Source: Candidatus Bathyarchaeota archaeon (lineage in GTDB: Archaea > Thermoproteota > Bathyarchaeia > Bathyarchaeales > Bathycorpusculaceae). From it: a DNA stretch of 64,000 nt. The notes beneath the pieces are model-generated. The model worked only from the letters and a program-made list of their open reading frames with translations, was not told the origin of the DNA and did not search any database. Shown here piece by piece: positions 9,876 through 57,505 of this stretch; the first letter of the stretch is position 1, and every line of letters begins with the position of its first letter. The stretch lies in NCBI GenBank assembly GCA_003151735.1, contig PLYI01000026.1, forward strand, positions 1 through 64,000, in the 5' to 3' direction. Position numbers and translations under genes: made by a program.

Positions 9876-11096
9876 GTGGCAAGCGGCGGAATAGATCACA
9901 TGATGGCCTTAATCATTTTCATGGCTGCTTTTCTAATTTTTATCGGGCTCTTTAGTCAAACCATGCAAACAGGAATCGCTTATGAACGCCACAATGCATT
10001 GTCGACGAAAACAAGCGACCTGTTAGACAATATACTTCTGAATCCGGGTATACCTAGCAATTGGGGACAAAGTGATAATGCAATCGTGGGCTTCGGGTTG
10101 CAGGACCCAGATTATTCACAGTACCAGTTGAGTTCTTCTTCTCTTATGCGCTTAACTTCCACTCAGTCGCCTGTTTATTATAATGGCACATACTACAGCA
10201 ACGTAACAGCAGGTTTTGGCGCTTACTTGCTTGCTCCATCCGCAAAGAGCCTCAATTACTCTACCGCGTCTAAACTTCTGGGAATAAACGGCACTTACGG
10301 ATTCCAGCTGGCTCTTACACCAACAATAACGGTTTCAATCCAAAAAATATCTGTTGCACCGCTAAACGTCTTAGTTAACGTTTATGGAACAGGTTACCCG
10401 CTTGCAAATGCTCCCATAAGCTACAGTCTCCTATTAATCAACCCAGATGCAAACGACTATCCCTCATATACAATGATAAGCGGCACAAACACCGCGGACT
10501 CATCAGGCTCAGCGCAACTTGTTTTTCCGCAAATCTCAACTGATAACCAATGTTACGCGCTTATAGTTTCTTCTTATCTTGATGGGCTTCAAGGAATAGG
10601 CTATTATGTACATGATTCCCAATCTTTAACTAAAACAATTGTTCCTTTAATAGACAGTTTTCAAAAACGAACCATTCTGCTTGCACACGGAGATTCTGTG
10701 GGTCAACCTCCGCAGCCTCCAGTGCCCTCGCAGTTGAATTATAACGTTTCATTTGTTATCTTAACGGAAGATTACACCCTGCGCCAAGTGCAATTAGACC
10801 AGTCAACTTCAGTTGGGAACCTGGTTTATTCTGGAAGTGGACAAAACTACGCTTCAATAACTGTTCCCAATAATGACGGAATATTAATTGTAACTTACAA
10901 GAACAATGCAGGTCAATACGGAATTGTTATGATGCCTTGGAGGTTAGATTCCTTGGCTTTTCCCTTAACGTTCGGCGGCAACCCAGCGGGGCAAGAATGG
11001 GTAACAACTGACCTTCGCCAAGTAGACATCGGCGGCATTGCGTACCAAGCAAAACTCGAACTATGGAATCTGCAAGGATATTCGGGGAGTGGCTAA
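9876..11096 (+). CDS. Pilin-like surface protein with Ig-like region
   Basis: A protein of about 406 residues. The N-terminus ASGGIDHMMALIIFMAAFLI has a Gly-Gly then hydrophobic helix like a pilin core. The body is Ser/Thr/Tyr-rich with a beta-sandwich-like section (ISVAPLNVLVNVYGTGYPLA) resembling carboxypeptidase-regulatory or Ig-like modules, and many sequons. An ATG at 9849 in frame would overlap the upstream gene by 25 bases, but GTG 9876 sits 9 bases after GGAGG (9862-9866) and directly after the previous stop, so it is preferred. The gene ends with TAA abutting the next ATG. Likely a pilus-associated minor subunit; no close family recognised. Confidence 0.7.
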   Translation: MASGGIDHMMALIIFMAAFLIFIGLFSQTMQTGIAYERHNALSTKTSDLLDNILLNPGIPSNWGQSDNAIVGFGLQDPDYSQYQLSSSSLMRLTSTQSPVYYNGTYYSNVTAGFGAYLLAPSAKSLNYSTASKLLGINGTYGFQLALTPTITVSIQKISVAPLNVLVNVYGTGYPLANAPISYSLLLINPDANDYPSYTMISGTNTADSSGSAQLVFPQISTDNQCYALIVSSYLDGLQGIGYYVHDSQSLTKTIVPLIDSFQKRTILLAHGDSVGQPPQPPVPSQLNYNVSFVILTEDYTLRQVQLDQSTSVGNLVYSGSGQNYASITVPNNDGILIVTYKNNAGQYGIVMMPWRLDSLAFPLTFGGNPAGQEWVTTDLRQVDIGGIAYQAKLELWNLQGYSGSG

Positions 11097-52277: not shown

Positions 52278-53219
52278 TTGAAAACAAGGATGCGACAAGA
52301 GATATCCGCTGACAAATTGGGCTTGACCGATTCCAAACAAAAGAAAAGAAGCGATAAAGTAGTGACCATTGGGCTCATCCAAACATATGTTTCAGAAAAC
52401 ATAGCGGAAAACATGGCAAAAACCGCGGAGAAGATTGAGGAAGCCGCAAAAAAAGGCGCCCAAATCATCTGTCTCCAAGAACTCTACAGAACAAGATATT
52501 TTCCGCAACAACAAAACCAGAATGTTAAAGACTTGGCTGAGATTATTCCTGGAGAATCCACCAAACTGTTTTCTGAACTCGCGAAAAAACACAGGATAGT
52601 CCTCATTGCACCTTTGTTTGAGAAAGCCAAAAACGGGAAATTCTACAATTCAGCCGTAGTAATCGGTTCAAACGGCGAAATCTTGGGCACTTACCGTAAA
52701 GCCCACATCCCACAAGATCCATACTTCTACGAAAAAGACTATTTTGTGGCAGGAGACACGGACTACCCTGTTTTCCAGACAGGTTTCGCCCGCATTGGCG
52801 TGCTCATCTGCTACGACCAATGGTTCCCTGAACCCGCCCGAATAAACGCGTTGAGCGGCGCAGAAATCATTTTTTACCCAACCGCCATCGGCTACGTTAA
52901 AGGCTGCACTTCAGCGGACGGCGACTGGCATGACGCTTGGAAAACCGTTCAACGCGCCCACGCAATCGCAAACGGAGTCCACGTTGCCGCAGTTAACCGC
53001 GTCGGTGAGGAAGGGGAATTGGAGTTTTGGGGCGGCTCATTTGTCTGTGATTCTTTCGGCAAAGTCCTTAGGGAAGCGAGCACAACAAAAGAGGAAGTAG
53101 TAATCGCTCAAATTGATTTGAGCGAAAATAAGAGAATTCAGGATGGATGGGGTTTTCTGAGGAATCGTCGCCCCGACACTTACAATCCGCTCACAAAAAG
53201 AGGCGCCGGCGATGAGTAG
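52278..53219 (+). CDS. aguB: N-carbamoylputrescine amidase
   Basis: A 313-residue nitrilase-superfamily amidohydrolase that turns N-carbamoylputrescine into putrescine. The catalytic triad is visible: Glu in ICLQELYRTRYFPQ, Lys in YRKAHIPQDPYFYEKDYF, Cys in GVLICYDQWFPEPARINAL. Its ending (DGWGFLRNRRPDTY) is typical. The start is uncertain: TTG 52278, ATG 52290 or an internal GTG in VVTIGLIQTYVSEN; most relatives begin near the last. It overlaps aguA by 8 bases, giving the agmatine-to-putrescine pathway. Confidence 0.9.
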   Translation: MKTRMRQEISADKLGLTDSKQKKRSDKVVTIGLIQTYVSENIAENMAKTAEKIEEAAKKGAQIICLQELYRTRYFPQQQNQNVKDLAEIIPGESTKLFSELAKKHRIVLIAPLFEKAKNGKFYNSAVVIGSNGEILGTYRKAHIPQDPYFYEKDYFVAGDTDYPVFQTGFARIGVLICYDQWFPEPARINALSGAEIIFYPTAIGYVKGCTSADGDWHDAWKTVQRAHAIANGVHVAAVNRVGEEGELEFWGGSFVCDSFGKVLREASTTKEEVVIAQIDLSENKRIQDGWGFLRNRRPDTYNPLTKRGAGDE

Positions 53220-54261
53220 CCAAGCCAAAACCTGCCGTGAACAAGGCTATAGGATGCCTGCGGAATGGGAGAAACATGATGCTATTTGGTTAGCTTGGCC
53301 GTATGATCCTACAACTTTTCCAGACAGGGTTGAACGCGTCGAAATAACTTACGTTCAGATTGTTAAGGAGATTCATGAGGGCGAGCGGGTAAACCTTTTC
53401 GTGAAAGATGAGCAAACAAAACAGAAAGCAACCCAACTCTTCAAAGCAGCAGACATTAACTTGACGCAAATCAATTTTTATGTTTTCGGTTACGCTGACG
53501 TTTGGTTTAGGGACTATGGACCAGTATTTGTTCAAAACCAGAACCACGAGTTAGCGATGATTCACTGGAACTTTAACTCGTGGGGAGAAAAATACGAGAC
53601 ACTGCTAAAAGACAAAGCTATTCCGGAAGTCATTAACAAAAAAATGGAGTTAAAATGCTTCAAGCCCAACATCGTTTTGGAGGGAGGCTCAATAGACGTC
53701 AACGGCAAAGGAACCCTCCTGACAACGGAGCAGTGCCTACTTAACCAGAACCGCAACCCAGACCTCAACAAGAAACAAATCGAAAAGTACCTATCCGATT
53801 ATTTGGGCGTTAACAATTTCATTTGGCTAAAAAGAGGTATCATCGGCGACGACACCGATGGACACATCGACGATTTAGCCCGCTTCGTAAACCCCACAAC
53901 AATTGTCTGCGCGTATCAAGAAGACGAAAACGACGTAGACTACGACGTCCTAAAAGAAAACTATCAAATCCTATGCCAAGCAGTTGACCAAGATGGCAAA
54001 AAACTAAGGATTGTCAAGTTGCCCATGCCTAAAGTAGTCAGCGACGAAGATGAACGATTACCTGCAAGCTACACAAACTTTTACATTGGTAACGAAAAGG
54101 TTTTGGTTCCAGTTTTTGACCACAAGAACGATGCGGCGGCGCTGTCGATTCTGCAGGATTTGTTCCCAACCCGAAAAGTCGTGGGTATCCGGTGTGTTGA
54201 TTTGGTTTATGGGTTTGGCACAATTCACTGTATCAGCCAGCAGCAGCCCTGCCCAGTCTAA
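53212..54261 (+). CDS. aguA: Agmatine deiminase
   Basis: A 349-residue guanidino-modifying enzyme (PPAD family) that converts agmatine into N-carbamoylputrescine and ammonia. Seen: RMPAEWEKHDAIWLAWPYDP, DVWFRDYGPVFV, VLEGGSIDVNGKGTLLTTEQ, GDDTDGHIDDLARF and the nucleophile Cys in FGTIHCISQQQP. The gene overlaps the amidase gene, so both enzymes are made together. The product putrescine would support polyamine needs. Confidence 0.93.
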   Translation: MSSQAKTCREQGYRMPAEWEKHDAIWLAWPYDPTTFPDRVERVEITYVQIVKEIHEGERVNLFVKDEQTKQKATQLFKAADINLTQINFYVFGYADVWFRDYGPVFVQNQNHELAMIHWNFNSWGEKYETLLKDKAIPEVINKKMELKCFKPNIVLEGGSIDVNGKGTLLTTEQCLLNQNRNPDLNKKQIEKYLSDYLGVNNFIWLKRGIIGDDTDGHIDDLARFVNPTTIVCAYQEDENDVDYDVLKENYQILCQAVDQDGKKLRIVKLPMPKVVSDEDERLPASYTNFYIGNEKVLVPVFDHKNDAAALSILQDLFPTRKVVGIRCVDLVYGFGTIHCISQQQPCPV

Positions 54262-54299
54262 GACTAAAGCACACCATGACAACAGTTCTCTTTTTAGTT

Positions 54300-54309
54300 A
54301 AGTTTAAAC
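54300..54309 (+). promoter_or_regulatory. TATA-like box for the HTH-NrdD-like gene
   Basis: AAGTTTAAAC lies about 60 bases before ATG 54368. A purine-rich GGAGAGAGTAAGG precedes the start codon. Confidence 0.4.
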
Positions 54310-54367
54310 TCCGCACCAGCATAATAGGTAAACCCCACAGTTTGAGGAGTTCAGGAGAGAGTAAGGT

Positions 54368-56584
54368 ATGGTTAATCAGTCTCCGCATCGTGCACGCGGC
54401 GTCAAAGTGCTAAAAGCCGTCTCGTCACCTCTCAGACTGCAAATCCTAAACCTGCTCTTCGACAAAAGCGCTCTGTCCTACACCGAACTTATGAACCAAC
54501 TAAAAATGAACCCCAGCCGCGACGCAGGAAGATTCGCCTACCACCTAAAATTCCTGCTAAAAGCAGATTTGCTTGAGGCAGATGTTGAATCAAAAAAGTA
54601 TTTTTTGACAGATCTTGGCAAGATGGTTTTGGATGTTGCTGACCGCGTCGAAAAGAAGGCGGTTAAACCGCGGGGTATGTTGGTTCGCACGTCACATTTG
54701 ACGCTTGAAGAATTTGATGTTAACAAAATCGCGAATTCGCTGATCAAAGAGGCAAAGGTTCCAGCGGAGTTGGCGCAGAAGGCAGCTAAAGAAGCAGAGA
54801 AACGCCTCGTAAAATCAAAAACAAAGTATCTCACAGCGTCGCTCATCAGAGAAGTTGTGAACGGCATTTTAGTTGAGAAAGGCTATGAGGATTACAGAAA
54901 TAAACTCACCCGCGTCGGCTTGCCAATCCACGAGGTAACCGCTCTCGTTGAATCCAAAGACACCGCCCAAGATGCAGACGCAACAATCAGTAAAGCCGGT
55001 CAAACTGTTCTGGGCGAGTACACGTTGCTGAATATTTTTCCAAGAGACATTGCAGACGCCCATCTTTCAGGAGCCATCCACATCGAAGGCTTAGGCACAT
55101 GGATCCTAAAACCCAACGAAGTGATCCATGACCTACGGTACTTTTTTCAACATGGCGTTAAACTTGACAACCCCCTCCAAGTCGCCATGGACGCGCCCAC
55201 CGACCTAAAATCGGCATTATCTATCGCGTTTAACGTTATTTTGCATGCCAGCAAAGAAACCAACCGAACTCAAACCTTCAACTACTTCAACGTGTTCCTA
55301 GCGCCCTATGTCCGTGGCAACGAAGTTGCAAAGATAAAAGAGAACCTGCGTTTGTTCATACAGAACCTCAACCAGCATGCAGAGGCTACGTTGGGTTTGG
55401 AACTTTCGATTCCAGCGTTAACCGGGGAAAAAGAAGCCATCGGTCCACAGGGCAAAACAAAAGGCAAATACAGCGACTTCACCCAAGAAAGCCAGCTAAT
55501 AGCTTCCCTTGTCATCGATGTCTTCGCCGAAGAAAGCACCAGCAAACCGCTGCTCAGCCCAAGACTGGTCATAAAAATCAACAGCGCCGCCTTGAGTGAT
55601 GAAAACGCAAAAGCCATTCTCCTCAAAGCGCACCAGTTAGCGGCAAAAAGTGGAACCCCATACTTCGCTAACATGACCAAGAAGGAAAATGAAAATGTGG
55701 CTTTTTCCTCTTCAGGCGTGAAATTCGCAGCTGATTTGACTGGCGACTGGGAAACTGACACCTTGCGGACGGGGTGCCTTGGCTGCGTAACAATTAATCT
55801 GCCCCGAATTGCGCTGGAATGTGAGAAGGACAAAAACAAATTCCAGGAGTTAATGCGGGAACGATTTGAGCTTGCAGCCCGAGCGTTAGGCATAAAGAAC
55901 AATGCAATCAAGCAGTTTGGGAAGAATTCCTTGCCTTTTCTTTTGCAGAAATCCGGCGGTGACACTTATTTCCGACTGGAAAACTGCTCACGAATAATCA
56001 ACCTAGCAGGTTTCCGCGAAGCCACCGAAGCTTTCACCGAAAAAAACGTCAACTCGGAAGAAAGCCGCAGATTCGCCGAAGAAACAATCCAGAACCTCTT
56101 AGCATTCAAACAGAAAATCGGCAGAAAACATGGGAAACGCCTCTACCCCGTCATCCTCGGAAGTTCAGAAGCATCTGAGCGGCTGGCGCAGCTGGACGTG
56201 GAGAGATTCGGCGTTGCCAAAGTGAAGTTTTCAGGAACAAGAGACAAACCCTATTATTCAACTGCTAAACGCTTCCAAGTGAAAGCCGCTGAGCTCCTAA
56301 GCATCCAAACGGAGATGCTTGAAACTGCGCAGAAGTGGAAGGGTTTGAATGCAGGCGGAAACCTAAACATCATCGAGCTTGAAGGCGCTGAATACAAACC
56401 TGAAACCCTGCTGAATCTAACACTTCGCCTGATGGAGAATCAATCCATCGAATTCTTCACCTACAACCGCCTAATCAGCTTCTGCGACAACTGCAAGAAA
56501 AACTGGTTCGGCACACTGCACAAATGCCCCTCCTGCGGCTCCATGAGCACGCTGACAACGTTTGACCGCTTTACCTCAACTTAA
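54368..56584 (+). CDS. Winged-helix / ATP-cone / NrdD-like fusion lacking the glycyl-radical site
   Basis: A 738-residue fusion. Residues about 1-85 are an ArsR-like winged helix (VSSPLRLQILNLLFDKSALS). Residues about 105-190 are an ATP-cone (FDVNKIANSLIKEAKVPAEL), the (d)ATP-sensing module of ribonucleotide reductases and NrdR. The rest has the class III reductase fold (HIEGLGTWILKPNEVIHDLR; TGCLGCVTINLPRI, Cys 470 and 473; SIEFFTYNRLISFCDNC). The zinc ribbon Cys 706, 709, 720 and 723 is kept. After it, NrdD enzymes have an R-V-T/C-G-Y motif with the radical glycine; here the protein ends DRFTST, with Ser 737 at the glycine position. The usual Cys-containing catalytic segment reads FSSSGVKF. 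No activase gene (nrdG) is nearby. A nucleotide-sensing regulator is inferred; a divergent enzyme is the alternative. Confidence 0.8.
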   Translation: MVNQSPHRARGVKVLKAVSSPLRLQILNLLFDKSALSYTELMNQLKMNPSRDAGRFAYHLKFLLKADLLEADVESKKYFLTDLGKMVLDVADRVEKKAVKPRGMLVRTSHLTLEEFDVNKIANSLIKEAKVPAELAQKAAKEAEKRLVKSKTKYLTASLIREVVNGILVEKGYEDYRNKLTRVGLPIHEVTALVESKDTAQDADATISKAGQTVLGEYTLLNIFPRDIADAHLSGAIHIEGLGTWILKPNEVIHDLRYFFQHGVKLDNPLQVAMDAPTDLKSALSIAFNVILHASKETNRTQTFNYFNVFLAPYVRGNEVAKIKENLRLFIQNLNQHAEATLGLELSIPALTGEKEAIGPQGKTKGKYSDFTQESQLIASLVIDVFAEESTSKPLLSPRLVIKINSAALSDENAKAILLKAHQLAAKSGTPYFANMTKKENENVAFSSSGVKFAADLTGDWETDTLRTGCLGCVTINLPRIALECEKDKNKFQELMRERFELAARALGIKNNAIKQFGKNSLPFLLQKSGGDTYFRLENCSRIINLAGFREATEAFTEKNVNSEESRRFAEETIQNLLAFKQKIGRKHGKRLYPVILGSSEASERLAQLDVERFGVAKVKFSGTRDKPYYSTAKRFQVKAAELLSIQTEMLETAQKWKGLNAGGNLNIIELEGAEYKPETLLNLTLRLMENQSIEFFTYNRLISFCDNCKKNWFGTLHKCPSCGSMSTLTTFDRFTST

Positions 56585-57505
56585 TTATTTTACGGCGCCA
56601 AGCACCAACGAAAGCAGCGTCATCCTCACTACGATGCCATTCCAGACCTGCTGGAAATACTTTGCCTGTGGAGTCGCATCTACTTCAGCGGCGATTTCAT
56701 CCACCCGGGGCAGCGGATGGAGGATTATCATGTCTTTTTTTGCGCCCTTGAGGGTTTTTAAGTCGATTTTGTAGGCGCCTTTAACTTTGGCGTATTCCGC
56801 AGCGTCGGGGAAACGTTCCTTTTGGATTCTGGTGACATAGAGGACGTCGATTTTGGGGATTGTGGCTTCGAGGTTTGCGTTTTCGGTTACTGGGATTTTA
56901 CTTTTTATGGTTTGGAGCACGTCTTTTCGCATGCGCAGGCTTTCAGGAGAGACAAGGAACAACTCGACATTGTAGAGTGCAAGTGCATAAGCCAGAGAGT
57001 GAACAGTTCGCCCATACCGCAAGTCGCCAACCAACGCCACCTTTAACCCATCAATTTTGCCCTTCTCTTTGCGCATAGTGTACAGGTCAGTGAAAGCTTG
57101 GGTGGGATGCTCTTGAGCGCCTGTGCCACCATTAATAACTGGTACCTTCGCTACATCTGCAGCTAATTTGGCTGAGCCTTCTAAACTATGCCTGAGCACG
57201 ATTGTATCAGCATAATTTTCCACAGTACGCACGGTGTCCGCGAGGTTTTCGCCTTTGCGGGCAGAGGTTATGTCTGGTTCAGCGAACCCGATGTAGTTTC
57301 CGCCGAGTTTGAGCATGGCGGTTTCAAAGCTTAGGCGTGTGCGCGTGCTGGGTTCAAAGAATAATGTTGCGAGGATTTTGCCTTTCAGCATGTCGGAGCC
57401 TGTTTTAGCAAGCGGCTCCATGGTTTTGCTAACATCCAAAATATGGTTGATTTCCTGTTGCGAGAAGTCTTCGATTGATATGATGTCTCTTCCCTTGAAC
57501 TCCAA
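56585..57505 (-). CDS. pyrB: Aspartate carbamoyltransferase catalytic subunit
   Basis: A 306-residue transferase that makes carbamoyl-aspartate in pyrimidine synthesis. The carbamoyl-phosphate motif FFEPSTRTRLSFETAM, the loop AEPDITSARKGE, VINGGTGAQEHPTQAFTDLY, and HPLPRVDEI are all present; length is standard. No regulatory subunit gene (pyrI) is adjacent in the window. The gene is convergent with the NrdD-like gene and their stops abut at 56584/56585. Confidence 0.95.
   Translation of the reverse strand: MEFKGRDIISIEDFSQQEINHILDVSKTMEPLAKTGSDMLKGKILATLFFEPSTRTRLSFETAMLKLGGNYIGFAEPDITSARKGENLADTVRTVENYADTIVLRHSLEGSAKLAADVAKVPVINGGTGAQEHPTQAFTDLYTMRKEKGKIDGLKVALVGDLRYGRTVHSLAYALALYNVELFLVSPESLRMRKDVLQTIKSKIPVTENANLEATIPKIDVLYVTRIQKERFPDAAEYAKVKGAYKIDLKTLKGAKKDMIILHPLPRVDEIAAEVDATPQAKYFQQVWNGIVVRMTLLSLVLGAVK

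Follow-up and report, generated by a model that had tools for sequence, protein, structure and literature searches.

What does a gene do that carries the fold of an anaerobic ribonucleotide reductase (RNR), breaks off where the radical glycine should stand and begins with a putative DNA-binding domain? Such a gene lies at positions 54368–56584 of the forward strand in the 64,000-nucleotide stretch of Bathyarchaeia DNA analysed here (the window) and encodes a protein of 738 amino acids, in which an ArsR-type helix-turn-helix (HTH), an ATP-cone and an NrdD body lead to the C-terminus FDRFTST. The original prediction, whose coordinates, length and named residues proved correct, was a nucleotide-sensing transcription factor built from a dead reductase. 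This is still the best reading available, and its support now has a phylum-wide basis.

All parts named in that prediction could be confirmed. The winged-helix/ArsR-type HTH spans residues 14–88 (54407–54631, + strand) and matches HTH_5 at residues 20–70 (Pfam, 9.3e-6, 25.9 bits against a cut-off of 22 bits), DUF7347 (7e-7) and, in a profile match, the ArsR structure 6j05 (E 0.004). The ATP-cone follows at residues 105–176 (54680–54895; PF03477, 1.5e-6) with the signature V106-R107-T108-S109. The NrdD-like body at residues 205–734 (54980–56569) scores 224 bits against NRDD (PF13597, 4.8e-66), and the closest solved structures both by sequence and by fold are the class III reductases 9d3x, 4coj and 1hk8 (AF2 model against 9d3x, E 9.6e-25). 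The full-length AF2 model has a mean pLDDT of 74, with good values for a large part of the NrdD body and weak ones for the HTH, and a model of the N-terminal part was poor (pLDDT 52). The zinc-ribbon cysteines 706, 709, 720 and 723 (56483–56536) are each 97–98% conserved among 130 members of the family. Upstream, the element GTTAAGTTTAAACT (54297–54310, + strand), which has one exact match in the window and is kept in the majority of 30 distinct upstream regions, is probably the BRE/TATA promoter of the gene. Two genes directly upstream on the same strand (52278–54261), which we read from their sequence as a carbon–nitrogen hydrolase and an agmatine-deiminase-like gene and which presumably resemble a polyamine pathway pair, recur in several orthologous loci.

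The gene is intact. All 14 full-length orthologues (63–93% identity), taken from GTDB genomes labelled Bathyarchaeota, Bathycorpusculum, Crenarchaeota or Nitrososphaerota, stop at the same place with FDRFxST, one of them with two extra residues; because they share this end, a frameshift is rejected, as had been argued from the alternate reading frames. Against the nearest aligned orthologue (L002) dN is 0.048 and dS 1.15, giving a dN/dS of about 0.04 that rests on this one pair, dS being saturated in most other comparisons. The gene is under purifying selection. With a common C-terminal end in orthologues of independent assemblies and this low ratio, frameshift, assembly error and pseudogene were excluded.

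The catalytic residues tell what kind of protein is being preserved. Ser737, which is followed only by Thr738 and the stop (56576–56584), aligns with the radical glycine of the canonical NrdD of the same genome (RVVGYL), as predicted. The stretch SSSGVKF, part of the segment FSSSGVKF that had been singled out for its missing catalytic cysteine, aligns with the canonical MCCRL, and Gly450-Val451 (55715–55720) stand opposite the Cys-Cys pair. Both catalytic-cysteine columns are occupied by other residues in the window protein, and no cysteine was found in it at or near the column of the thiyl-radical cysteine (Cys416 in the P. copri enzyme, PMC11226230; Cys290 is the T4 counterpart). We extended the comparison to 149 proteins, comprising 130 HTH-bearing members from Bathyarchaeia and other Thermoproteota and 19 canonical NrdDs. 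The motif RVxGY is absent from all 130 and present in 17 of the 19, the remaining two being truncated. A cysteine corresponding to T4 Cys79, the second catalytic cysteine, which is missing from some known NrdDs too, occurs in none of the HTH-bearing members versus all canonical enzymes; at the Cys290-like column the count is 12 of 130 versus 19 of 19, and the column is otherwise freely variable (L, I, V, F, S, T). Nine members have a glycine at the radical-glycine column, never together with a complete catalytic set. Two members of one family (L069 and L071, f10) have both cysteine and glycine at their columns but lack the Cys79-like cysteine and the tyrosine after the glycine, and their relative L068 has phenylalanine at the cysteine column. 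Judged by its residues, the reductase part of the family is catalytically dead, as had been claimed for the window protein: not one of 130 members has the full catalytic set.

What the family has conserved is of a different nature. Conservation is highest in the HTH (mean majority-residue conservation 95%, alignment A1) and in the ATP-cone, where V106, R107, T108 and S109 are each found in more than 95% of the 130 members. The lysine of the canonical Lys-Arg pair of the cone is valine in the fusion and Arg107 is kept, and thus the binding of ATP or dATP, or the ligand preference, may differ. In the NrdD body, Asn477, Arg480, Gly548 and Asp610 are retained, Trp245 is invariant (phenylalanine in most canonical enzymes), and Gly450 plus a variable residue take the place of the canonical cysteine pair, followed in most Bathyarchaeia members by a new motif, DWExDTLRTG, that is missing in ammonia oxidisers. 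In three families (f29, f35, f39) the body is eroded further and HTH and ATP-cone are retained, and several groups have lost the C-terminus. Most Bathyarchaeia families outside that of the window (f1) have a longer C-terminal tail that can be aligned with the canonical one and in which the glycine is replaced (SRSSAKYLPL, GRSSYGLLPF and similar). The window's family has therefore lost an end that in its relatives had no function left.

The survey for the same fusion that the original prediction called for was made with a family profile, which was run against 257 genomes from the class and 398 from the phylum Thermoproteota. Full-length HTH-bearing homologues occur in most Bathyarchaeia families searched, with f25–f27 as clear exceptions, and in many other Thermoproteota families, including ammonia oxidisers identified by AmoA (f29, f61, f58). 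No HTH-bearing member with RVxGY was among those read from these genomes, nor did the search across class and phylum reveal close homologues with an intact radical glycine and catalytic cysteine. In a tree that left out L061, a fragment at a contig edge that includes part of the HTH, and nine long, duplicate or partial rows, a single branch separates 51 HTH-bearing members from 19 canonical NrdDs (SH-aLRT 100); since the root is not known, a single origin of the fusions is favoured by this tree and not proved. One Bathyarchaeia genome (G139) has two canonical NrdD genes (contigs C32 and C33), and in one of these an in-frame stop interrupts the matched stretch.

The neighbourhoods of the gene point to deoxynucleotide supply. 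Its immediate successor is canonical nrdD in about eight groups of family rank; for the class II gene nrdJ the number is about five, and for dcd one or two. Directly upstream of nrdD and on the same strand it is found at L100 (f23), L101 (f21), L102 (f22, with nrdG next) and L119 (f6), and by coordinates it lies ahead of nrdD in f7, f9 and f47. At two loci of f4 (L117, L118) it is likewise upstream of nrdD on the same strand, with a gene for a glutaredoxin-like protein in between (10823–11179 in L117), likely the reductant for that NrdD. Upstream of nrdJ it stands in 28 Nitrosopumilaceae genomes, with a gap of about 130–250 bases, and also in f58, f61, f71 and f18 (L110); in f35 and f39 nrdJ lies elsewhere. 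At L157 (f64) the gene directly after it (10125–10664) is that for dCTP deaminase (dcd), another dNTP gene, and L158 (f60) has the same layout, its next gene being probably dcd by position and size. In most other loci, including the window, the neighbour is a convergent pyrB (56585–57505, − strand, in the window; synteny in 28 of 35 loci with the fusion gene), often with pyrI, identified by Pfam, behind it; pyrB is also the neighbour in f46, f62 and f66. In the window the two stops abut (56584/56585), and in its family the fusion gene does not adjoin nrdD.

NrdR, rare in archaea (PMC9110341), is missing from most genomes checked: TIGR00244 matches were obtained in four of 29, all of the window's family. 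The single match in the window genome is on contig C80, away from the fusion gene, within an nrdR-nrdD-nrdG operon (L017, 698–3962). The canonical NrdD of this operon groups with a Bacilli enzyme in the tree, and the lineage therefore probably acquired a bacterial-type operon together with its own repressor. The promoter before nrdR carries AGTGT/ACACT dyads, which we take to be similar to NrdR boxes and which suggest that regulator, enzyme and site were transferred together. The L225 promoter TACACTATAAATAGTGTA likewise resembles NrdR boxes. By eye, no operator common to the window's fusion gene and the nrdRD promoter of its genome was found.

A possible operator did emerge in the ammonia oxidisers. 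The fusion gene is present in 57 of 61 sampled f29 genomes. Nine AmoA-positive genomes have no other NRDD gene and do have a class II NrdJ, so the fusion cannot serve there as the class III enzyme, and a glycyl-radical role is not plausible in these nine. The gap between fusion and nrdJ in Nitrosopumilaceae often carries a dyad, which reads TATGAAnTTCATA in 11 loci and takes the form of YGAAnTTCR variants in other loci. This core was counted 23 times in 16 loci behind the fusion gene against 0.85 expected from mononucleotide shuffles, where the motif was defined after looking, some sites fall beyond the start of nrdJ, and the genomes and loci, being related, are not independent; upstream of the fusion gene there were two sites against 1.2 expected from shuffling. 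Across ten genomes, picked because they carry the palindrome, TATGAAnTTCATA occurs one to three times per genome, and in five of them the copy at nrdJ is the only one. The palindrome, seen in part of the Nitrosopumilaceae, is a candidate operator and an indirect hint of sequence-specific DNA binding as a dimer.

We consider it likely, from the genomic evidence, that the fusion regulates the transcription of genes for dNTP supply in Thermoproteota, chiefly RNR genes, with the whole dead reductase as its sensor. Several lines of evidence argue for this: none of 130 members has a complete catalytic set while canonical NrdDs keep one; fusions and canonical NrdDs separate on one branch; conservation peaks in HTH and ATP-cone while the NrdD body erodes further in some groups; in many genomes the gene precedes whichever RNR gene is used, nrdD or nrdJ, and in one or two groups dcd; in nine AmoA-positive genomes the fusion cannot be the class III enzyme; a palindrome that is rare elsewhere stands before nrdJ in several ammonia oxidisers; and NrdR is absent from most genomes checked. 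Against it count the fusion gene's distance from nrdJ in f35 and f39, the restriction of the palindrome to part of the Nitrosopumilaceae, the poor model of the N-terminal part, the lysine-to-valine change, which may alter ATP/dATP binding, and above all the window's own lineage, the weakest point, where the fusion gene is not beside nrdD and nrdD has its own NrdR.

A known class III NrdD moves between a dimeric and a tetrameric state under the influence of ATP and dATP at its ATP-cone (PMC11226230), and NrdR acts on the transcription of RNR genes by forming oligomers that depend on nucleotides (PMC9110341). If the fusion works in an analogous way, its assembly and its contact with DNA should change with the nucleotide pool. 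The ArsR-type HTH would bind an operator; the ATP-cone, perhaps together with the allosteric sites of the emptied NrdD dimer, would bind nucleotides such as ATP or dATP; and the resulting change of quaternary state would switch DNA binding, so that RNR expression tracks the nucleotide pool by the logic of NrdR with different parts. DNA binding, the ligand and the direction of regulation are what we infer here. As to history, we lean slightly towards a scenario that starts, in an ancestor within the Thermoproteota, with the duplication of an anaerobic reductase and its conversion into a nucleotide sensor that binds DNA. This sensor would since then have acted as chief controller of RNR genes across much of the phylum, would have stayed beside the RNR gene even where class II replaced class III and would fill the place of NrdR in bacteria.

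Four other explanations were weighed against an RNR regulator. The dead subunit might act on the protein level, binding an active reductase and inhibiting or tuning it, with the HTH serving protein contacts or DNA tethering. That many genomes have its gene as the immediate neighbour of nrdD or nrdJ, and that it retains the NrdD fold, which normally dimerises, would fit. We nevertheless regard this as unlikely, for the gene accompanies RNR genes of class II as well as of class III and, in the window's family, of neither; NrdJ would not be expected to form a heterodimer with the fusion; and the best conserved parts are HTH and cone. Quite unlikely, too, is a DNA-binding regulator of other genes, for instance pyrBI or a wide regulon, with the RNR neighbourhood as a relic of a duplicated nrdD operon. 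The convergent pyrB of most lineages, the separation of the gene from nrdD in the window's family and the nrdR of the window genome speak for it; but a relic leaves the adjacency to nrdJ or dcd unexplained, neither being an NrdD paralogue, and pyrB, being convergent, is not driven from the promoter of the fusion gene. An enzyme of altered chemistry that needs no glycyl radical would account for the retained fold with Asn477, Arg480, Gly548 and Asp610 and for the 12 cysteines at the Cys290-like column, yet is very improbable given that the Cys79-like cysteine and RVxGY are missing throughout, that the Cys290-like column varies so freely and that several groups have lost the C-terminus. The chance of an error in sequencing or assembly, or of a pseudogene in decay, is negligible, since this would explain the missing motif and nothing else in the face of the end shared by independently assembled orthologues and the low dN/dS against L002.

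The proposed RNR regulator would have consequences beyond this locus. The family is a concrete candidate for the control of RNR levels in archaea, in a phylum that includes ammonia oxidisers, and an NRDD match in an aerobic archaeon is no ground for annotating an anaerobic reductase. If the reading is true, a transcription factor would for the first time be seen to derive from an entire ribonucleotide reductase: a complete metabolic enzyme that has lost its catalysis and now serves as sensor in the transcription factor of its own pathway. In the open-access literature, with subscription journals and arCOG notes outside the search, we found no description of an HTH, ATP-cone and NrdD fusion.

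Three known systems invite comparison. With NrdR, the RNR repressor of Zn-ribbon and ATP-cone, the fusion shares an ATP-cone as nucleotide sensor behind a DNA-binding domain and a gene that often adjoins RNR genes (PMC9110341), a link seen in many lineages and not in the window's own. Unlike NrdR, it has an ArsR-type HTH and no N-terminal Zn-ribbon, carries a whole dead NrdD behind the cone, is not homologous over its length and occurs where NrdR is mostly absent. With the class III enzyme NrdD it is homologous over ATP-cone and body, keeps the zinc-ribbon cysteines and finds its best PDB matches there, but it has an additional N-terminal HTH, neither the radical glycine nor a full catalytic cysteine set (neither cysteine in the window protein) and an NCBIfam NrdD equivalog score of 243.9, below the cut-off of 326. 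With ArsR/SmtB-type winged-helix regulators it shares the HTH_5 match above cut-off, whereas its HTH is joined to ATP-cone and NrdD and scores below the HTH_metalloreg cut-off. As a regulator the fusion would belong to a known kind, the nucleotide-sensing regulators of RNR, and what is new are its parts, found in no regulator that turned up in the literature.
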